From: Methanoculleus bourgensis MS2 | GTDB taxonomy: Archaea; Halobacteriota; Methanomicrobia; Methanomicrobiales; Methanoculleaceae | Direction of reading: 5' to 3' | Assembly (NCBI RefSeq): GCF_000304355.2 | Contig: NC_018227.2 | Location: 620,001 to 684,000, forward strand | Length of the DNA stretch: 64,000 nucleotides | Part shown: positions 7,110-40,361 of the stretch, piece after piece | Numbering within the stretch: the stretch's first letter is position 1 | Layout: each line of letters starts with the position of its first letter | Program-made: the position numbers and the translations under genes | The notes under the pieces: generated by a model | Database searches by the model: none | Seen by the model: only the letters and a program-made list of their open reading frames with translations | Told to the model about the DNA's origin: nothing

Positions 7110-7847
7110 TTACGTTATAACGTAGGCTATGGAGACGCTGGCGGTCACGTCGATCTCACCGACCTCGATCGGGGTCGGGACGGCGGCCCCGCCTGCCTTC
7201 TCCATGGCCGCATAGCGGTTGTCGTAGAGCATGGGCACGTAACTGTTCCCGACGTTGACCTCTTTGACGTCGATGATGGTCTTGCCGAGGGCGGCCGCGA
7301 CCGCGTCCGCGTCACCCTGTGCCTGCGCAACCGCGGCGGTCAGGGCCTCTGACCGGAGTTCCTGCTGCTTTGCGTCGCTCAAGGTCAACGAGAGCCGGTC
7401 GACACGGTTTGCGCCGCTCGCAACTGCCAGATCGATGATCTCACCGGTGCGGTCGACGGCATCAAGCCTGACCTCAAGGTTGTTGATGACCCGGTAGAAC
7501 CTGATCTTGGCACTCACCAGGGGTTTGTCGTTCTGCTCGGTCACCGGTATGATGGTGTAGCCGGTGGTCCTGAGGTCCTTTGCCGGAATGCCGGCGCCCT
7601 TCAGGGCGCTGACCACGGCGTCCATCTTCTGGGCGTTCTGCTGCTGTGCGATTTTGGCATCGGCGTTCTCGGTCTCGACCGAGAGCACGATGATGGCCAG
7701 GTCGGGCGTGGTCGTCACTTTGCCTGTGCCTGATACGTGGATCAGCTTATCGTTTGATTCCTCGGGCAGCTGGGCGGTGACGTTCCCGATCACCGCAGCG
7801 CAGAGGACCATCAGGGCGATCCCCAGAAATGCTATCTTTCCCCGCAT
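7110..7847 (-). CDS. Exported SIMPL-domain (DUF541) protein
   Basis: About 245 residues. An N-terminal signal peptide or anchor (GKIAFLGIALMVLCAAVIGNVTA) is followed by a SIMPL/DUF541 domain (HVSGTGKVTTTPDLAIIVLSVE and the C-terminal GEIDVTASVSIAYVI). Members are periplasmic or cell-surface proteins of poorly known function. ATG at 7847 is chosen; an in-frame TTG at 7856 is less likely. An AT-rich TTTATT promoter-like element lies just upstream. Confidence 0.88.
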   Translation of the reverse strand: MRGKIAFLGIALMVLCAAVIGNVTAQLPEESNDKLIHVSGTGKVTTTPDLAIIVLSVETENADAKIAQQQNAQKMDAVVSALKGAGIPAKDLRTTGYTIIPVTEQNDKPLVSAKIRFYRVINNLEVRLDAVDRTGEIIDLAVASGANRVDRLSLTLSDAKQQELRSEALTAAVAQAQGDADAVAAALGKTIIDVKEVNVGNSYVPMLYDNRYAAMEKAGGAAVPTPIEVGEIDVTASVSIAYVIT

Positions 7848-22258: not shown

Positions 22259-22607
22259 TTTCAGCATTCCAGCAGGTTTTCAGCAGAATTTCAGCAGGTG
22301 CTGGAAGGATCGATCTCCCCGGAACGGCGCTGAATCAGAGAATACTAGTACAGAGAGAGACGCGTCTCTCTCTACTGATCATACTGTACAGCAAAAGAGA
22401 GATCCACCCAGTTCGACCGGTCTCCGGGTCTCCGGGGGTGTGCGTGTGTGCGAAACCCGGAATGCTGTAACCACAACCTGGATACCGCCTGATACACCCC
22501 CGAATGGGAATTCCCAGATTTAATCCGGCCGTTTGATTACAACGGGCTCCGTAAACCGCTGAAAACTGCTGAAAACTGCTGAAAACAGAGGGGGATTGCT
22601 GAAAGCA
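22259..22607. repeat. Two inverted arrays of GCTGAAA iterons around a 22-bp palindrome
   Basis: TTTCAGCA occurs at 22259-22266, 22278-22285 and 22289-22296, with a variant TTCCAGCA at 22267-22274. In the opposite orientation GCTGAAAACT recurs with 10-bp period at 22558, 22568 and 22578, and again at 22598. Between them lies a perfect 22-bp palindrome of AG repeats centred on ACGCGT (22352-22373). The whole block is just upstream of the AAA_4-type gene remnant. No protein-coding frame is credible here (22021-22655). Confidence 0.6.
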
Positions 22608-22655: not shown

Positions 22656-23198
22656 GGAACATCTCAGTTTTTGCTGCCCCGGCGAAGGTCGAGATCGGCT
22701 GGTGTGGTGCGGGTCTCGATTCCCGGCCGGGTGATCGATGAGCGGTATACCCGTATCCTCATTGAACGGAAGGATCTGACGCTGATGGATGTGATTGCCC
22801 TCGATAAGGTGCAGAAGGGCTACCCCATCTCAAAGGAGGAGCGGGAACTCCTGCGGAAGAAGAACCTTATCGAGGGACGGCATCCGAACTTGTATGTTTC
22901 TGAGAGCGTGGCAGCCAAGACTGATACGCAGGCTGATTATATAAGAAATAGGTCGTTTGACAGGGCATATTTCAAGGATATGGTGGTGGCGTACCTCCGG
23001 ACATATCACGAGGCGAAGAGAGCGGAGATTGAAAAGCTGTTGCTGGACAAGGTATCCGATGCTTTGAACAAGGAGCAAAAGCGCCAGTTCATTAAAGATC
23101 TGCTTCAGGAGATGCGTAAGGAGGGGACGATCAGGACTATTGGGATAACACGGGGCGCGAAATGGGTGCTCGCTCATGATCCTGAAGATGGGGTATGA
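22656..23198 (+). pseudogene. C-terminal remnant of an AAA_4 / RecG-like DNA-binding ATPase
   Basis: About 175 codons matching the C-terminal half of COG2865-type proteins as I know them (RVSIPGRVIDERYTRILIE, then LDKVQKGYPISKEER and a final winged-helix IKDLLQEMRKEGTIRT). The AAA_4 ATP-binding N-terminal part is missing: upstream the frame closes at a TGA (22653-22655). A TTG at 22671 or an internal start could still express a short DNA-binding protein. It is embedded between two direct-repeat arrays. Annotated as truncated; a functional short form is possible. Confidence 0.65.
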
Positions 23199-23399: not shown

Positions 23400-23619
23400 A
23401 TTATTGGGGAATGATTGGAGTATGATTGGAGTATGATTGGAGTATGATTGGAGTATGATTGGAGTATGATTGGAGTACGATTGGAGTATGATTGGAGTAT
23501 GATTGGAGTATGATTGGAGTATGATTGGAGTATGATTGGAGTATGATTGGAGTATGATTGGAGTATGATTGGAGTATGATTGGAGTATGATTGGAGTATG
23601 ATTGGAGTATGATTGGGGA
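23400..23619. repeat. Tandem array of about twenty 11-bp units (ATGATTGGAGT)
   Basis: Eighteen uninterrupted units from 23411 to 23608, all identical except one C for T substitution in the unit at 23477. The array is capped on each side by a degenerate unit (ATTATTGGGGA at 23400, ATGATTGGGGA at 23609). Loose relatives (GATTGGAGA, GATTGGGGA) occur at 23294-23334. Long reading frames across it are by-products of the 11-bp period. No spacers exist, so it is not a CRISPR. Confidence 0.9.
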
Positions 23620-31460: not shown

Positions 31461-31513
31461 GGGGATCGCCGCCTCGTCTCGTGCGGGGCAATCCCGGTCG
31501 AGTCCCTGAATGA

Positions 31514-31663
31514 CCTCAGGAGTATCAGCAACTCAATAGCGCGAAAAAGGCGACCGCGACACGGGATCTTAAGGCGATGGTTCAAATCGGCATTCTCCGC
31601 AAAGAGGGAACGACCGGGCCTGGCGTGCGTTACTCGTTGACGTACGTAGTGAGAGAGGGATAG
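31514..31663 (+). pseudogene. C-terminal winged-helix remnant of an AAA_4/Fic-type regulator
   Basis: About 49 codons from a TGA at 31511 to TAG at 31661-31663. The pattern (LNSAKKATATRDLKAMV, then QIGILRKEGTTGPGVRYSL) is the winged helix found at the C terminus of AAA_4 (RecG-like) or Fic proteins. The rest is absent. A short direct-repeat array follows 26 bp later, as at the 22.6-kb remnant. The surrounding gap 31461-31914 holds no other gene. Confidence 0.6.
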
Positions 31664-31689
31664 CAAGGGGAACCAATAACCGGACTACA

Positions 31690-31729
31690 ATGGGATCAAT
31701 GGGATCACGATGGGATCAGAATGGGATCA
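31690..31729. repeat. Short direct-repeat array ATGGGATCA (four units)
   Basis: ATGGGATCA at 31690, 31699, 31710 and 31721; spacing 9, 11 and 11 bp. A fifth ATGGGATCA is at about 31806. It lies just downstream of the winged-helix remnant and has the same 11-bp period as the 23.4-kb array, with a different sequence. Confidence 0.7.
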
Positions 31730-31914
31730 TGATGCCGGCCCCGAATATGTTCAAACGAACTCAGCGCGCCGAATACGCAAAATTTCCCCTTTCCGCCATT
31801 GTATGATGGGATCATGACCCCCATCGATCACAGCCGCCGTCTCGGTACCGTAGCAGAGAGACCCCCGCTCCTCCGGCCCCGGTTGACGGTCTTCATTCCC
31901 GAGAAGTCCGGGGC

Positions 31915-32910: not shown

Positions 32911-35814
32911 ATGGGATATCGTTCAGGAGATATTGTATCGTTAAGGAGGCGCCTTTGGCGAGTTGATTTGGTCGATGGGGACGTCCTCTGTGCGACCTGT
33001 ATTGACAGCGATTCCGCAGAGCAGCATCGTTTCTTCACACCGTTTGAAAGGATTGAGAGGGGGAGAATTCATCCGCCGAACCCGGAGATAATCGGAGATG
33101 TCGCCACCAACCGCCTGCTGGTTCAGGCGTTCCGGTATTCCATGGTGCATGGGACTGCACCGTTGATGAGCCTGCGGAAGAGTGCGGTCATCCCGACAGA
33201 GTATCAACTGGCTCCTGTAATTATGGCCCTGAACCAGGGGGAGCGGGTCCGGATGCTGATCGCCGACGACGTCGGGCTTGGTAAGACAATCGAGGCCGGA
33301 CTTATCGTTTCTGAATTGAAGTCCCGTAACCTGGCATCCCGGGTCCTCATCATCTGCCCGCAGAACCTTCGGGAGCAGTGGAAGGATGCGCTCCGGTTCT
33401 TCTTCCAGATTGATGCAAAGATCTTCTCGTCGGTGCATCTCCGCGGCCTTGAGAGGGGTATTCCACCGGGGGCGAACCCCTGGGATTGTTATCCGTGCAT
33501 CATTACTTCCATCGATTACATCAAATCCGAGCGGGTCCGCCCCTTTGCGATCAGCGCGGGCTGGGATCTTGTGATCATCGATGAGGCACATCTCGCCGCA
33601 AAACCCCACCAGAGTTCCGAGAAGGAGAGCACTGGTATGCTCCGGCACACCCTGGCGAAAGAGGTTGCGAAGAAGACAAAACATCTCCTGCTGCTCACAG
33701 CAACACCCCATAACGGCTATACCGATACCTTTGCGAGCCTCCTTACCATGCTCGACTGCGGGATTGTAACCGGCCCGCCGCATGAGCCGGTGATCAACCG
33801 AGCCCTGGCGAAAGACCACGTCTGCCAGCGGCGGCGAAAAGATGTGGTTGACTGGTTCCGTTCCCACGCCGCTGAAGATAATCCGTTCCCGACCCGCGAC
33901 CAGAAGGAGGTTGCCGTCGATCTGGCGTTCCCCGAGGAACACACGATCATAAACGAACTCAGCAACTACGGAACTGGTCTGCTCGATCTCGCAGAGCGGG
34001 ATGACCGTATTGAAGTCAGGACGATGGCCCGGTGGGTGGTGCTGCACCTCCACCGCCGGGGGCTCTCCTCCCCACGTGCGTTACAGATATCGCTTGAGAA
34101 CCGGCTCAAGCGGATCGAGGAGAAGATCCGGGAGGAGGACGAGAGGCAGGAGCAGGCAATCTCGGAGGGGCACGCGAAGGCGGTTGCCCTTGATGAAGAA
34201 GGGGACAGCGATCTCTCGGATGAGGAGGCGTCCGAGCGTCTCGACCAGGTGGTTTACGGGAGCCTGACGGCACTGGAAGCGGAAGCGGAGCGTCTCCGGG
34301 ACCTGATGAAGATGGCACGGGACGTGACCCCGGCGAAGGACAGCAAGCTCCGGGAGCTCACCCGGAGAAACGGCTACCTGGACCTGGCGATGCGAGGACA
34401 GTACGGCCCGCGGAAGGTCCTGATCTTCACCCGGTACAAGGATACGCTGGACTATCTCGCGAGAGAAATACCGAAGAAGCTGAAGAGCATCGATCCTGCA
34501 CATGTGTTTGCCGTGTACGGCGACCTGAACGAGAAGAACCGGCACGAGGTGATGGAGGCATTCATCAGGGCGGAGTATGGGGTTCTGGTCGCGACCGACT
34601 GCATCAGCGAGGGGGTGAACCTCCAGCATATGGCCAACCAGGTCATTCACTACGAGCTGCCTTGGAACCCGAACCGGCTTGAGCAGCGGAACGGCCGGCT
34701 GGACCGGTACGGGCAGCCCGAGCCCGAGGTGCATATACGGACGCTGGTGATGCGGGATACACTCGATGCAAAGATTCTCCGGGTGCTGTACGAGAAGGCC
34801 CAACAGATCCGGGAGGATTATGGATTCTCTCCGCCGTTCTTCGGGGACGATGCGGACGTGATCTCCCTTATCGGGGAGATGGGGCTGGATGTAGGTCTGC
34901 CGCCAGCGCAGCGGACGCTGTTTGATTCGTACCAGGAGAGGCCCGGTTCGGGGCAGCGGGTCGATCCGTTCAGCGAGGAGACTATCGAGAAGATCAAGAG
35001 GGAGAGTTTCTACGGGCAGACCGGTGTCGATCTCGAGGATGTTCGGGCCCGGATGGCGCTTTCGGAGCAGGTTATCGGGACAGAGAAGGATTTCGAGCGT
35101 TTTGTAAGAAATGGGCTTGTCCGCTTTGGCTGCGAGATCACGGAGAACCATGACCGCAACCAGACACTGCGAATCCTGCTCTCTAATGATCTGGTGGTGC
35201 CGGGCTTACCCGATGTGATCGAGAAGGCTACGTTCGAGAAGCGGATCGCTCTTCAGGAGGCCGGTATCGAGCAACTGAACACAGGCCATCCGGTGGTGCG
35301 CCGCCTGATCGAGCTCGTCAAGCGCGATGTCTTCTCACCGGAGACGAAGATGTACGGCAGGGTCTGCGTGGTGGCGACCCCGAATGTGGCCCACGTGACG
35401 GCGCTCTACCACTTCCTCGTTCGCTATAGCATCGGCGGGGCACGCCCTTCGCTGGTGGAGGAGATCGTGCCGGTCGCCTGCGATCTGGTCACGGGGTCTT
35501 TCCCGGGCGAGGAGGAGGCCGCCGGTCTCGACCGTGTGGAGATGGTGCCGTTGCCCCCCGGGCGCGAGGCGAGCGTGAAGAAACACCTTGTCCGGGCGCT
35601 TGCCGAGGATACGTGGTCGTCGATCTTTGCCGAGCGGATCGAGGCCCGGCGCCAGGAATTGGTGGCTGAACGGGAGGCACTCCGGGAGCAGCTCGCGGCG
35701 GTCTACCCCGATCCCGGGTGGCTTTCCGGCGCCGCGGAGATTTCGGTCGCTTCCCACGACCTGATATCGCTGCGGTTGCTTGAGCCGGTGCCGACGGCGG
35801 AGGTGCGGCGATGA
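32911..35814 (+). CDS. SNF2-family helicase, DrmD-like
   Basis: 967 residues. Walker A in ADDVGLGKTIEAGL near residue 120, DEAH in VIIDEAHLAAK near 222, TATPHNG, and the helicase C part (VLVATDCISEGVNLQ, RNGRLDRYGQP). N- and C-terminal extensions resemble the SNF2 helicase DrmD of class 1 DISARM, or DpdE of the 7-deazapurine system. A methylase follows as in DISARM, so I favour DrmD. Its TGA overlaps the next ATG by 4 bp. It heads a five-gene operon with a GGTGAG ribosome site before ATG 32911. Confidence 0.8.
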   Translation: MGYRSGDIVSLRRRLWRVDLVDGDVLCATCIDSDSAEQHRFFTPFERIERGRIHPPNPEIIGDVATNRLLVQAFRYSMVHGTAPLMSLRKSAVIPTEYQLAPVIMALNQGERVRMLIADDVGLGKTIEAGLIVSELKSRNLASRVLIICPQNLREQWKDALRFFFQIDAKIFSSVHLRGLERGIPPGANPWDCYPCIITSIDYIKSERVRPFAISAGWDLVIIDEAHLAAKPHQSSEKESTGMLRHTLAKEVAKKTKHLLLLTATPHNGYTDTFASLLTMLDCGIVTGPPHEPVINRALAKDHVCQRRRKDVVDWFRSHAAEDNPFPTRDQKEVAVDLAFPEEHTIINELSNYGTGLLDLAERDDRIEVRTMARWVVLHLHRRGLSSPRALQISLENRLKRIEEKIREEDERQEQAISEGHAKAVALDEEGDSDLSDEEASERLDQVVYGSLTALEAEAERLRDLMKMARDVTPAKDSKLRELTRRNGYLDLAMRGQYGPRKVLIFTRYKDTLDYLAREIPKKLKSIDPAHVFAVYGDLNEKNRHEVMEAFIRAEYGVLVATDCISEGVNLQHMANQVIHYELPWNPNRLEQRNGRLDRYGQPEPEVHIRTLVMRDTLDAKILRVLYEKAQQIREDYGFSPPFFGDDADVISLIGEMGLDVGLPPAQRTLFDSYQERPGSGQRVDPFSEETIEKIKRESFYGQTGVDLEDVRARMALSEQVIGTEKDFERFVRNGLVRFGCEITENHDRNQTLRILLSNDLVVPGLPDVIEKATFEKRIALQEAGIEQLNTGHPVVRRLIELVKRDVFSPETKMYGRVCVVATPNVAHVTALYHFLVRYSIGGARPSLVEEIVPVACDLVTGSFPGEEEAAGLDRVEMVPLPPGREASVKKHLVRALAEDTWSSIFAERIEARRQELVAEREALREQLAAVYPDPGWLSGAAEISVASHDLISLRLLEPVPTAEVRR

Positions 35815-38800
35815 GGGGGAGGGAGCAGTCTTTTGTCCGCGTCTCGGGCGGGATTGTCACAGAACACTTTGCCTCCCTGCTGCAGGACGAGAAGCACGGG
35901 TTTGAGTATGCCCGGCCGATGACGTTCGTCCGGCCCTGGCGGGAAGAGGACCTGCCACCGCAGGATGAGGCGCAGTTCCTCGCGCAGGTCAGGGATGTAT
36001 GGGAGCGGCTCCTCCGCCGGTTTGACGAGAAGTTCCGGGATATCTGGGCTGGAAGGATGAGTGCGGAGGAGGTCAGGCGTCTCTGGCAGCGGCCGGTGCT
36101 GGACGCGCTCGGGTTCGAGCCGACGTCCACGACGAAGCAGATCGTGATCAGCGACCGGCTGAAGTACCGGTTCTCCCACCGGGGCTGGTTCGCCCGCGAG
36201 GGGATCCCGAAACCGCCAGTTATCCATATCCTGCCGCCGGGGACGGACCCGGACGCCCGTCCCTCCCGCGGGGAGCCTTCACCCCACGATGCCCTGCAGG
36301 ACTGCCTGAACCGGCACGATGCGACCTGGGCGGTACTGATGAACGAGACGGTGATCCGGATCCTGCGGGACTACCATCATACGACGGTTCCGGGGTATGT
36401 GGAGTTCGATCTCGAAGGGATCTTCCTGAACCGGAGTTACCCTGAGTTCCTTGCGCTCTACCGGTTCTGCCACGCAAGCCGGTTCGCCCGCGATCCTGCG
36501 ACCGGCAGAGAGCCGCTGGAGGAGTACTACGAGGTGAGCCGTCAGGCGGGGGAGAAGATCGGCGAGAGCCTGCGGGGGAACGTGGTCCGGGCGATCGAGG
36601 AGCTCGGGAACGGGTTCCTGGACGGGTCGCTGATCGAGCGGCTGCGGGGCGATGACGGGGCTTGCCGGGCGTACTATCAGGAGGTCCTGATGGTGGTGTA
36701 CCGGATCATCTTCATGCTCTTTGCGGAGCAGCGGGGGATGCTCGGCGGCGGCGGGGACCACGGGGACCTCTTCCTTGAGGAGTACTCGATCACGTCGCTT
36801 CGGGAGCGGGTGGATGCGTTTGAGGGGCGGGACGACCGGAACACCGACCTCTGGGAAGGGCTCTCTGTGACGTTTCGGATGCTTGAGGAGGGCGTGCCCG
36901 AACTCGGGGTGAACGCATTTGATGGGATGCTCTTTTCAAACGACGGGGCCCGGTTCCTGAAGGATGCAAAGTGCCGGAACACGGCGCTGATGAACGCGAT
37001 CCGCTCGCTGACCTGGACAGTCTCAGAGACCGGAGGGAGGCGGCAGAGGGGTCACGGTCGCCAGCGGATCAGTTACGCCGACCTCTCGGTGGAGGAGATC
37101 GGGGCGATATACGAGAGCCTGCTCGATTACACGCCGCGGATCACCACGGGTTTTGAGGAGGTCAACGGGCGGGAGTACCGGCCCGGCCAGTTCATGCTGG
37201 ACCCACGGGGCTCGGAGCGGAAGACGACGGGGTCGTACTACACGAACCCTGACCTGATCGCGGAGCTGATCAAGAGCGCTCTTGACCCGGTGATCGCCGA
37301 CCGGCTCTCCCGGGCAGGACCGGATCCTGCAGCGAGGGAGAAGGCGCTCCTCTCGATCCGGGTCTGCGACCCGGCATGCGGGAGCGGGGCATTTTTGATC
37401 GCGGCCTCGAACCGGCTCGGCCGGGAACTGGCAAAGATCCGGGCCGGGACGGAGTTGCCTTCGGCGCAGGAGGTGCAGGCAGCCCGGCGGGACGTGCTCT
37501 CCCACTGCATCTACGGTGTGGACTTAAACCCGATGGCGGTGGAACTCGCGAGGGTCTCGCTCTGGATCAACGCGCTGGTAGGCGATAAGCCGCTCTCCTT
37601 CCTTGACCACCATATCAAGTGCGGGAACTCGCTCGTCGGGGCGACGCCGGAGCTGATCGCGGGAGGCATCCCGGACGGGGCCTACACGGCGGTGGAGGGG
37701 GACTCAAAAGAGGTCGCGAACAGGATTAAAAAGGCAAACCGGGAGCAACGGCAGACCCGGACGTTCGAGGAGTTCTCCGCCCGGTCTACGGTGCTGGAGG
37801 CCTGTGCCGGACGGTTTGCGGCGCTTGCGGAGGCCTCTGAGGACGACCCAGACAGTGTCGAGGCGAAGAAGGCCGAATATCAGCAGCTGATCACTTCATC
37901 CGAGTATGCAAAGGAGCGCCTGAGCGCGGACTGCTGGTGCGCCGCGTTCTTCTGGCCGCTGGATGGGGAGCACGCGAGGACAGCCCCGACGACCGCGACG
38001 GTGCGGATGGTTCAGGCGAGCGGGGGAGGGATGCTCGTTGAGGATACGTTGGCCGAGGTACGGCGTATTGCAAACGAGCACCGGTTCTTCCACTGGCACC
38101 TCGAGTTCCCGGAGGTCTTTGCGGACGGGGGGTTCGACTGCGTGCTCGGGAACCCACCGTGGGAGCGGATCAAGATCCAGGAGAAGGAGTTCTTTGCTTC
38201 CCGTGACCCGGACGTCGCCGGGGCAAGGAACGCCGCCGAACGGAACCGGATGATCAACGCCCTCAAGACCGGGAACCCTGCACTCCACGTGGAGTTCCTC
38301 GCCGCGAAGCGCTCGAGCGAGTGCGAGAGCCTCTTCATCCGCACCTCGGGCAGATTCCCCCTGACCGGGACGGGAGACGTCAACACTTATACAGTCTTCT
38401 CCGAACTCGCCCGGCGGGTGGTCGCGCCTCGCGGGCGGGCCGGAATCATCGTGCCGACCGGGATCGCGACCGACGCGACGACGGCGCCGTTCTTCGGCGA
38501 TCTGGTGGATCGGGCATCGCTCGTGAGCCTCTACGACTTCGAGAACAAGGAAGGATATTTCCCAATCGCTGGAATTAATAAGTTTTCATTATTTACAATT
38601 GTAGGTGAAGCGATTGAATCAAATAATTATGATTTTGCATTTTTCCTCAACAATGTAACTGATTTATACGATCCCGAACGTCATTTTACGTTGAAACCGG
38701 AAGAGATTGCAGTATTAAATCCTAATACCCATAATTGTCCCATTTTTAGAAACAAAAACGATGCAAAAATTGCTAAATCTGCTTATAGGAATATTCCAGT

Positions 38801-40361
38801 GTTAATTAATGAATCAGAGGGCGAGGCTGGAAACTCTTGGGGAGTCTCGTTCCAGACAATGTTCCATATGTCCAACGACTCCCACCTCTTCCGTACCCAC
38901 GAAGAGATGGCAGCGGCGGGGTTTGTGCTCGACGGGAACCGATTCGTGAAGGGGGAGGAGGTCTGGCTGCCGCTGTATGAGGCGAAGATGTTCCACCAGT
39001 ATGATCATAGATTTGGAACCTTTGAGGGCGTTACCAAAAAAAGCCAAAAAGTACTCCCCACTCCAAGAGAGGATCAGTATTCCGATCCGGTTTACACAAA
39101 TCAGCCCTGGTATTGGATAAATCAAGAATATGTGATACAAAAAGTAGGTTCAAACTCGAGATATTTTATAGGATTCAGGAATATTACGAACATTTCAACC
39201 AACCGAAGAACTGGAATGTTCTCATTTATTCCCTATTCTGGAGTTGCCCACTCTGCTCCATTGATGAGAGTTAATGGAGAACTATCGAATCCGTGCATAC
39301 TATTGATATCTAATCTTAATTCATTCATATATGACTATTTCCTTAGACAAAAAATTGGTGGGATGAATCTCACTTTCTTCATCCTCAAACAACTCCCCGT
39401 CCTCCCCCCCTCCGCCTATACCCCCACCCTCACCAACTTCATCGCCCCCCGCGTCATCGAGCTCACCTACACCGCCTGGGACCTCGAACCCTTCGCCCGC
39501 GACGTCCTCGCCGAGGTGGGCGTGGCACAGTGGAACGCCTGGTTCCCGGCAAACCCCGTCGGCGATGACGGCACACCCCGGCCGTTCGTCTGGGACGAGG
39601 AGCGGCGGTTCGACCTCCGGTGCGACCTCGACGCCCTCTACTTCCACCTCTACGAGATCTCGCGGGAGGACGTCGACTACATCATGGAGACTTTCCCCAT
39701 CGTGAAGAGGAAGGACGAGGCGGCGTACGGGAGGTACCGCACGAAGGAAGTCATCCTCCGGAAATACGACGACCTTGCCCGGGAGTTCGTCCGGGTGATG
39801 CGGGCCGATCTCCCTGAGAAGGATGGGAAGCCCGACTGGAGAGCGCTCATCGCCGGCGGTGAGAGCGAGCGGGTCGAGTTCAAGGAGTCGATATCCTGGG
39901 ACCGGGAGCGGAAGCAGAGGAACAAGGCGCTGGAGCACACCATCGCGAGAACCCTTGCGTCCTTCATGAACACCCACGGGGGTGTGCTCTTCGCCGGCGT
40001 CGATGATGCCGGGGGGATCGTCGGGCTCGACGGCGACCTGAAACTCTCCCAGCGGAAGAACGAGGACGGCCTGCGGCTCCGGTTCGACGACCTGGTGAAG
40101 CAGTACCTCGGCAACCGGTTCCTTCCCCGGATCATGATCCACTCGCTCGAAGACGGCGGAAAGGTGTTCTGGGCGGTCGAGGTCAGGGCTTCGAACGAGC
40201 CGGTATTCGTGAAGAACAACGGCGACGACGAGTTCTGGATCAGGGGGATGTCGTCGTCGCGGAAGCTCTCGATGCGCGAAGCCGTCGAGTACATAGAGAG
40301 GCGGAAGTCCGGCGGGGCCGGGGATCCCGATGCGGGTGAGGAAGCAGGTGAAGGAGAATGA
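35811..40361 (+). CDS. Eco57I-type N6-adenine DNA methylase fused to an AlbA_2 domain (DrmMI-like)
   Basis: 1516 residues. Motif I DPACGSGAFL near residue 520 and motif IV NPPW at 781-784 identify an N6-adenine methyltransferase. Residues about 1340-1500 form an AlbA_2 (Schlafen-like) domain: ESERVEFKESISWD, then FMNTHGGVLFAGVDDAGGIVGL. The long N-terminal part (1-500) is helical and I see no nuclease site, so it is a methylase rather than a type IIG enzyme. Codons for residues about 917-1001 and 1063-1188 are strikingly AT-rich, as expected for a swapped target-recognition domain. The gene sits between DrmD-like and YaaA-HEPN genes with 4-bp overlaps on both sides. Confidence 0.85.
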   Translation: MRGREQSFVRVSGGIVTEHFASLLQDEKHGFEYARPMTFVRPWREEDLPPQDEAQFLAQVRDVWERLLRRFDEKFRDIWAGRMSAEEVRRLWQRPVLDALGFEPTSTTKQIVISDRLKYRFSHRGWFAREGIPKPPVIHILPPGTDPDARPSRGEPSPHDALQDCLNRHDATWAVLMNETVIRILRDYHHTTVPGYVEFDLEGIFLNRSYPEFLALYRFCHASRFARDPATGREPLEEYYEVSRQAGEKIGESLRGNVVRAIEELGNGFLDGSLIERLRGDDGACRAYYQEVLMVVYRIIFMLFAEQRGMLGGGGDHGDLFLEEYSITSLRERVDAFEGRDDRNTDLWEGLSVTFRMLEEGVPELGVNAFDGMLFSNDGARFLKDAKCRNTALMNAIRSLTWTVSETGGRRQRGHGRQRISYADLSVEEIGAIYESLLDYTPRITTGFEEVNGREYRPGQFMLDPRGSERKTTGSYYTNPDLIAELIKSALDPVIADRLSRAGPDPAAREKALLSIRVCDPACGSGAFLIAASNRLGRELAKIRAGTELPSAQEVQAARRDVLSHCIYGVDLNPMAVELARVSLWINALVGDKPLSFLDHHIKCGNSLVGATPELIAGGIPDGAYTAVEGDSKEVANRIKKANREQRQTRTFEEFSARSTVLEACAGRFAALAEASEDDPDSVEAKKAEYQQLITSSEYAKERLSADCWCAAFFWPLDGEHARTAPTTATVRMVQASGGGMLVEDTLAEVRRIANEHRFFHWHLEFPEVFADGGFDCVLGNPPWERIKIQEKEFFASRDPDVAGARNAAERNRMINALKTGNPALHVEFLAAKRSSECESLFIRTSGRFPLTGTGDVNTYTVFSELARRVVAPRGRAGIIVPTGIATDATTAPFFGDLVDRASLVSLYDFENKEGYFPIAGINKFSLFTIVGEAIESNNYDFAFFLNNVTDLYDPERHFTLKPEEIAVLNPNTHNCPIFRNKNDAKIAKSAYRNIPVLINESEGEAGNSWGVSFQTMFHMSNDSHLFRTHEEMAAAGFVLDGNRFVKGEEVWLPLYEAKMFHQYDHRFGTFEGVTKKSQKVLPTPREDQYSDPVYTNQPWYWINQEYVIQKVGSNSRYFIGFRNITNISTNRRTGMFSFIPYSGVAHSAPLMRVNGELSNPCILLISNLNSFIYDYFLRQKIGGMNLTFFILKQLPVLPPSAYTPTLTNFIAPRVIELTYTAWDLEPFARDVLAEVGVAQWNAWFPANPVGDDGTPRPFVWDEERRFDLRCDLDALYFHLYEISREDVDYIMETFPIVKRKDEAAYGRYRTKEVILRKYDDLAREFVRVMRADLPEKDGKPDWRALIAGGESERVEFKESISWDRERKQRNKALEHTIARTLASFMNTHGGVLFAGVDDAGGIVGLDGDLKLSQRKNEDGLRLRFDDLVKQYLGNRFLPRIMIHSLEDGGKVFWAVEVRASNEPVFVKNNGDDEFWIRGMSSSRKLSMREAVEYIERRKSGGAGDPDAGEEAGEGE

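Follow-up and report, generated by a model that had tools for sequence, protein, structure and literature searches.

A degraded Schlafen-type gene end with its own array of putative winged-helix recognition sites in Methanoculleus bourgensis

Prokaryotic Schlafen-like proteins (COG2865/AAA_4, 3lmm) have the domain architecture and fold of the intact relatives of the locus described here, in which an SLFN_AlbA_2 domain of nucleic-acid/RNase-like type and an HATPase_c_4 domain are present, whereas the copy in the window, which is the 64-kb stretch of the Methanoculleus bourgensis MS2 genome that was analysed, is devoid of these catalytic domains. The combination of a Schlafen RNase, a minimal histidine kinase, and a winged-helix (wHTH) domain was reported as a defence effector linked to BREX (PMC12839542); in the part of that text located, the three-part make-up is like that of the intact relatives and in-gene repeats are not mentioned, and the genes considered here are mostly solitary. 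A gene-embedded array matched to the wHTH domain was not found described for the Schlafen-like family in the literature searched, which included few subscription journals and no preprints. Among repeat-based systems, in TubR-tubC and ParR-parC a small protein binds DNA that contains short, phased direct repeats of about 11-12 bp, and the arrays reported here likewise pair a DNA-binding protein with phased short direct repeats. However, the TubR-tubC and ParR-parC sites lie 5' of the partition operon, whereas the present arrays are found within the coding linker or at the 3' terminus of a gene that encodes a fused-domain protein. Plasmid iterons with Rep are also protein-specific direct repeats beside a gene, as here; unlike in those systems, no replication origin or Rep domain was seen at these loci, which are chromosomal and number several per genome.

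The window locus and its relatives

Positions 31514-31660 of the window translate to PQEYQQLNSAKKATATRDLKAMVQIGILRKEGTTGPGVRYSLTYVVREG, a run of 49 codons closed by TAG at 31661-31663. Because a TGA at 31511-31513 shuts the frame directly 5', the feature at 31514-31663 (forward strand) is a remnant without a start. It keeps helix 2, the recognition helix, and the wing of a wHTH domain, with helix 1 missing; the helix borders were taken from the AlphaFold model of an intact relative (locus L092) and carried over via the DNA alignment. Neither SLFN_AlbA_2 nor HATPase_c_4 was found in the remnant, which contains the wHTH only, and for this reason the copy is classed as a remnant rather than a working member. 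A Fic catalytic domain was likewise not found in it, and its match to Pfam SoFic-like_C is weak (18.6 bits, below the cut-off). After a gap of 26 bp from the TAG, four ATGGGATCA units follow on the forward strand at 31690-31698, 31699-31707, 31710-31718, and 31721-31729, with starts spaced by 9/11/11 bp. The earlier note on this DNA had described the 49-codon remnant, the 26-bp gap, and these four units, all of which were confirmed; it had missed a fifth ATGGGATCA on the same strand at 31806-31814, 77 bp beyond the fourth unit. The five exact copies in the 64-kb window compare with a mean of 1.1, and none of 100 shuffles reached five, while 200 dinucleotide shuffles of the whole window never gave more than two where four identical non-overlapping 9-mers are found within 45 bp here. 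The array thus comprises at least three phased short direct repeats beside a gene for an HTH protein, and it scores 56-65 in Tandem Repeats Finder (TRF). Genome-wide, ATGGGATCA occurs 26 times against about 21 expected by chance in a simple 9-mer count, and it is clustered only at the window and at the copies in a second locus of the same genome (L014).

The window locus is not isolated, in that its wHTH and its unit are found again at other places of this genome and in a congener. L014 contains an SLFN_AlbA_2 gene that extends from 6033 to about 7687 and appears to be interrupted near 7200-7360, and its wHTH tail, array, and distal copy all match the window; a second array copy, without the wHTH tail, lies at about L014:12929. 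The intervening stretch at L014:7200-7360 resembles CTCACGCGAAG... repeats that are present elsewhere in the genome, among other places at L016:2162-2508. In a genome of the same genus, L092 contains an intact gene with SLFN_AlbA_2 (PF04326, 57.4 bits) and HATPase_c_4 (PF13749, 66.6 bits), no Fic domain, and a wHTH at about residues 430-488 of the AlphaFold model that is nearly identical to that of the window; its array, GGGATCATAAT, begins 10 bp before the stop. In the alignment of the window, the two stretches of L014, and L092, both the array and a distal ATGGGATCATG about 75-85 bp further on are retained, so that the fifth copy of the window has a counterpart at the aligned place in both L014 copies and in L092. 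The remnant, which can be aligned as DNA and by its protein tail to L092 and to the end of the first L014 copy (copy a), belongs to the same C-terminal wHTH subfamily.

Since L014 and L092 share both tail and array with it, the window locus is read as the 3' end of an SLFN_AlbA_2/HATPase_c_4/wHTH gene whose catalytic part was lost. On these alignments, it is very likely the degraded 3' end of a solitary Schlafen-type gene together with that gene's own array of putative wHTH recognition sites. With the catalytic part gone, the array is probably a relic, unless it is still bound by the product of the paralogue, and the L014 copy is itself interrupted.

The model of L092 matches 3lmm (DIP2311 of Corynebacterium diphtheriae) along its length (Z 25.4, rmsd 15.5, 405 residues), and the rmsd of 15.5 implies that the domains match in a different arrangement. 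The AlbA_2 part of L092 resembles Schlafen 5/11/14 (VIA), SLFN13 (Foldseek), and SAMD9. In the part of the source located, the catalytic triad of SLFN13 is given as E205/E210/D248 (PMC5862951). These residues align with E, E/D, and D in the relatives; as read from the alignments, they correspond to E48, D53, and D83 in L092, where the first and third acidic residues match, and all three match in the L014 paralogue. When four relatives were searched with PADLOC defence and NCBIfam profiles, every match was either partial or below the cut-off. In structure comparison, the wHTH folds resemble the C-termini of Fic proteins as well as pNOB8 AspA and TrmBL2; the likeness to the latter two is that of a fold common to very many proteins and is not taken as a sign of function.

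A second array in the window had been given by the earlier note as another instance. It accompanies an ORF at 22671-23198 (forward strand, from the ORF list) that is presumably the C-terminal part of an AAA_4-type protein and has only Pfam matches below cut-off. Its array, ATTGGAGTATG in 19.5 copies at 23403-23616 on the same strand, begins about 205 bp beyond the stop and accounts for every one of the 17 exact genomic copies of ATTGGAGTATG. Two further short arrays, built from much the same unit in opposite orientations (CAGCAGGTTTT and AAACTGCTGA), are located at 22270-22299 and 22553-22586, 5' of this ORF. Elsewhere in the window, an Eco57I-like methylase ORF of 1516 aa (35811-40361) possesses an SLFN_AlbA_2 domain at residues 1351-1486 and adjoins an SNF2-like helicase (32911-35814), which looks like a defence island.

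Occurrence and anatomy of the arrays

The occurrence of arrays was assessed with TRF (score >= 45, period 8-13) in four stretches defined from the domain start, namely the tail (+230..+830), the body (-600..0), an upstream stretch (-1200..-600), and a further downstream stretch (+900..+1500). A PF13749 search of 61 genomes in the order, of which 40 were positive, provided the order set, which consists of the best 110 matches (30 loci followed in E-value rank by 80 more, the weakest at 4.2e-14) minus one already in L014. Among these best-match genes, an array was found in the tail in 72/109, in the catalytic body in 2/109, upstream in 7/107, and further downstream in 5/105. After 20 rounds of dinucleotide shuffling, the tails gave a mean of 0.4 and a maximum of 2 of 109, and 30 control loci of ordinary wHTH regulators (HTH_5) gave arrays in 2/148 stretches. 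A wide set that combined 80 loci of named genomes across many phyla with 8 loci on plasmids, and which was drawn using an alignment of array-bearing genes via a pattern in the HATPase domain and may be biased accordingly, showed arrays in 65/82 tails and 0/86 bodies, with 3/82 and 4/78 in the remaining two stretches. Furthermore, when the wHTH family PF21247, rather than the catalytic domain, seeded the search, an array lay beside the wHTH in 23/30 loci, that is, in 20/24 with HATPase_c_4 upstream and 3/6 without. The proposal that short-period repeats are enriched next to such genes is therefore upheld by tail against body in the best matches of the order (72/109 vs 2/109) and in the wide set (65/82 vs 0/86), and the scope of methanogens within which it had been framed proved too narrow, as arrays are present there and reach far beyond them in the wide set and in Bacteroidota.

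In the Bacteroidota sample, arrays were found in 14/28 tails and 0/30 bodies. The Pseudomonadota sample (66 loci, one removed as a repeat of L198) had arrays in only 7/62 tails and in 0/64 bodies; a short or absent tail after the domain was seen in 29/65 of its genes, and many others had different wHTH types. These Pseudomonadota counts rule out the array as a universal trait of AAA_4 genes. The arrangement is general yet confined to certain clades and does not extend to the whole family, so that the idea of a general regulator-plus-array with its own repeat for each protein is supported, though not as a universal trait. In the order set, 26 wHTH-bearing genes had no array at the threshold used. 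By wHTH type EM, C2, and WE, arrays were found in 32/40, 21/33, and 15/21 genes of the order set, 15/16, 21/31, and 34/38 of the wide set, 2/12, 1/8, and 4/7 of Pseudomonadota, and 4/6, 6/12, and 3/4 of Bacteroidota, where the type profiles, being made from array-bearing genes, are not independent for the order and wide sets. Because periods outside 8-13 bp were uncounted, relatives such as L079, L112, and L164 scored as array-less; these three loci possess longer linker repeats (e.g., KTESTRE) with a period above 13 bp. The suggested link to Fic-type proteins was not supported: although the wHTH folds resemble Fic C-termini, none of 27 SoFic_C-matching loci had an array up to 200 bp from the selected ORF end, with one at -242, in a sample in which 16/27 SoFic_C matches were below the Pfam cut-off and PF21247-bearing Fic proteins were outside. 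An array of 20 perfect TAGGATACAG copies is located at L165:2932-3131, on the Streptococcus dysgalactiae plasmid NZ_CP044103.1, and begins about 27 bp after the stop of an unannotated AAA_4-type ORF.

Anatomy and covariation were analysed in 141 genes with a usable array, where one array per gene (the top TRF score) was taken uncurated, so that a few are wrong, e.g., in L021, for which a downstream array was taken instead of the linker array. In class I (89 genes), the array lies within the coding linker between HATPase_c_4 and the wHTH, with a period of 12 (77 genes), 11 (11), or 13 (1). In class II (52 genes), to which the window array belongs, it lies at or after the stop (<=320 bp) or in the final 100 bp of the ORF, with a period of 11 (33), 10 (11), 9 (4), or 12 (4). 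The description of repeats of 9-12 bp period flanking the gene is thus retained for the short period and is amended in that the range is 9-13 bp and arrays also occur inside the coding linker. Copy number ranges from 2 to 20 across genes. In L032 and L052, the array-plus-wHTH cassette is present twice, consecutively, in a single ORF, and this doubling looks like the duplication of a whole specificity unit. Most gene copies are chromosomal and solitary, and where there are several per genome, their units differ.

Coupling of the repeat unit to the wHTH domain

Across the 141 genes, the partial correlation between wHTH and unit similarity given catalytic similarity was 0.346 (0/999 permutations, phylogeny uncorrected), against 0.030 between catalytic and unit similarity given the wHTH (55/999 permutations); repeat sequence thus follows wHTH sequence, a relation for which the earlier note had suggested a test. 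By class, the wHTH-unit value was 0.577 in class I (0/999) and a weak 0.082 in class II (25/999). Where catalytic similarity was >= 0.7 and wHTH similarity < 0.3 (60 pairs), no pair shared the unit at >= 0.8, and the unit was shared at that level in 39% of 104 pairs with wHTH similarity of 0.5-0.6 and catalytic similarity < 0.35. Across domains of life, GAACAAGT[A/C]ACC (in L243, GAACAAGTAGCC) pairs with wHTHs of the HRP(T/N)F type, the carriers of which are methanogens and ANME-2 (L022, L050, L243) as well as Limnohabitans and Geopsychrobacter (L198, L227).

The AlphaFold models place the recognition helix at residues 458-470 in L092, a class II gene (mean pLDDT 84), and 413-425 in L230, a class I gene (90.8), and the class I linker is modelled at low confidence. 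The similarity of a 13-residue block, slid along the wHTH, was used to predict unit similarity, with the catalytic part and the remainder of the wHTH accounted for. The recognition-helix block gave 0.372 in WE (n=36), 0.557 in EM (n=44), and 0.211 in class II (n=36), each with 0/999 permutations; the best blocks, at 0.376, 0.573, and 0.251, respectively, overlap this helix, and in WE and class II the wing ranks next. Mere linkage is disfavoured because the class I wHTH blocks closest to the array on the DNA score low. After removal of near relatives, the EM helix kept 0.503 (0/499) and the WE helix 0.349 (0/499), with the wing slightly above at 0.373, and the class II helix was unstable (0.166 with 42/499 at 0.6; 0.318 with 6/499 at 0.5). 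This thinning and the comparison of blocks within the same domain are partial answers to permutations that are uncorrected for phylogeny. In one family, ACTAGGG accompanies KGIEW-type helices, ACTGTGG accompanies those of RG(I/V)EWN type, and ACTTCGG those of RA(I/V)EM type, each in few genes.

For 11 of 22 hold-out genes with arrays, the unit belonging to the nearest known wHTH came within the top 10% of the units of like period, and ranks averaged 0.271 where chance would give 0.5 (Wilcoxon p = 0.0016), in a sample that includes near-duplicates (L434/L435, L439/L441) and L454, which is almost identical to L160. The unit was missed for about half of the genes, e.g., L434 and L443. As judged by covariation between sequences, the unit is coupled to the wHTH and not to the catalytic part, chiefly through the recognition helix and the wing.

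Possible roles of the arrays

The orientation and placement of the units bear on what the arrays may do. Among pairs with similar wHTHs, the unit was shared at >= 0.8 in the same sense in 115/218 (class I) and 23/59 (class II), and in none as the reverse complement, which indicates a fixed orientation with respect to the gene. Of GAAGTCACCCCG, 30/31 exact copies in five genomes lie inside the arrays of their own genes; GAACAAGTMACC has 13 copies in five genomes, at least seven of which are in arrays by coordinates and three clearly elsewhere in one genome (G061). Unit copies adjoining the array are enriched (24 vs 4.0). Near the start codon (-300..+60, 136 genes), own units numbered 5, against a mean of 2.4 and a maximum of 5 for the units of other genes, which is no clear excess.

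In the intact relatives, the gene thus carries one private, fixed-orientation array of 9-13 bp repeats, and a possible mechanism is proposed on this basis. The wHTH probably binds its own array, presumably one protein per unit, side by side and roughly on one helix face. The bound row could then limit expression of its own gene by blocking elongation, and a potentially toxic defence RNase would thereby bring its own brake to any host, irrespective of the promoter. An array placed within the gene or at its end is compatible with a brake that is carried along, whichever promoter the gene comes under. Limitation of its own expression by the array-bound protein is plausible, with a chance that we place a little short of even; the own-unit count near the start codon speaks against autoregulation, and a promoter operator of an autoregulator was rejected on the same scan.

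It is also conceivable, though rather doubtful, that the inactive, polymerised protein is stored on its own array and that loss of the array or chromosome damage during phage attack frees the RNase. In favour of this reading, the array is private, confined to a single locus, and away from the promoter; proteins combining Schlafen, histidine-kinase-like, and wHTH parts were reported, in the part of the source located, as BREX-linked defence effectors (PMC12839542), and residues 1 and 3 of the SLFN13 triad align in L092, and all three in the L014 paralogue. Storage alone, however, leaves the constant 3' placement of the array unexplained.

Regulation of promoters is the usual role of wHTH domains. 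The wHTH might accordingly control its own or neighbouring promoters, with the array as the strongest of many sites, and the enrichment of unit copies adjoining the array would agree with this; yet the promoter scan (5 vs 2.4, max 5) and the near absence of units elsewhere in the genome make such an ordinary operator very unlikely. A role in segregating or anchoring the replicon, like that of TubR-tubC or ParR-parC, is highly improbable: phased direct repeats do lie beside a wHTH gene whose fold is like that of pNOB8 AspA and TrmBL2 among many others, and one gene is near a parA gene on a Rhodothermus plasmid, but most copies are chromosomal and solitary, with several per genome and different units.

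Selection on the encoded peptide was considered for class I, most arrays of which have a 12-bp period and encode clean tetrapeptides (TPEV, TREK, ESQP...), so that the DNA repeat might be a by-product of a peptide linker; unrelated viral proteins contain TEQV repeats as well, and their codons are close to marginal expectation. Eleven class I arrays, however, switch reading frame at each unit because their period is 11 bp, giving, e.g., GDQVGTKSG-like strings, and class II arrays lie at or beyond the stop. In the 12-bp arrays, synonymous positions had the same codon in 282/379 cases against 134.2 expected from the codon usage of the same genes (118 gene pairs with catalytic similarity < 0.5 and >= 3/4 of repeat residues shared), whereas identical HATPase-domain residues of the same pairs gave 0.349 against 0.330 expected (n = 3308). 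By this codon comparison, the arrays are constrained as DNA and not as peptide, and a selected peptide linker is scarcely credible. Least probable of all is functionless expansion of short repeats by replication slippage in a tolerant spot, for which a copy number of 2 to 20 and the presence of the window copy in a dead gene could be cited, since the position is fixed, the period is narrow, and across phyla the unit covaries with wHTH similarity and with the recognition helix.

Phage decoy arrays were rejected as a candidate; a search of viral contigs with 24-mers of two common units gave 16 stretches, none of which had HATPase_c_4. No decoy claim is drawn from 75 viral EQVT-repeat stretches because the unit frequency, 21/75, fits the codon-marginal product (18.3), and the reversed EQVT pattern was absent from the viral contigs. 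Three IMG/VR loci (L287, L288, L290) have genes without HATPase_c_4 in which TEQV repeats are encoded by GAACAAGTAACC, a common array unit; codon marginals can account for this match, although a decoy role for these genes is conceivable. The sole viral-contig match to the ATGGGATCA array is L297 (IMG/VR), which has a long 12-bp array; two 12-bp arrays of 33 and 28 copies, ATCAAGTAGGGG-like and open in more than one frame, lie at L297:1-394 and 855-1187, and no HATPase_c_4 was found within the stretch examined.

The reading in which the array-bound protein brakes its own gene may be extended, tentatively and at clearly less than even odds, to a joint one. In a broad class of solitary Schlafen-type genes, the protein and its cognate array, the latter set into the coding sequence or over the stop, would be inseparable, and the product sitting on its own gene would both brake expression and store the RNase. 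The cassette could be swapped or duplicated and would provide a private DNA address, so that the gene would serve as sensor, store, and switch, and recognition helices and arrays together might form a natural specificity code legible from sequence alone.

If true, a very common and unexplained prokaryotic gene family, which bears a helicase-like database name and to which recent work assigns a defence role, would openly bear the DNA that its own protein targets. Recognition helices could then be matched to their DNA sites in hundreds of natural pairs, which would aid the reading of wHTH specificity from sequence, and there would be a direct route to testing how solitary Schlafen RNases are controlled. 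Part of the coding sequence in this family would also be under selection for protein binding at the DNA level, and in some genes this would apply to all reading frames.
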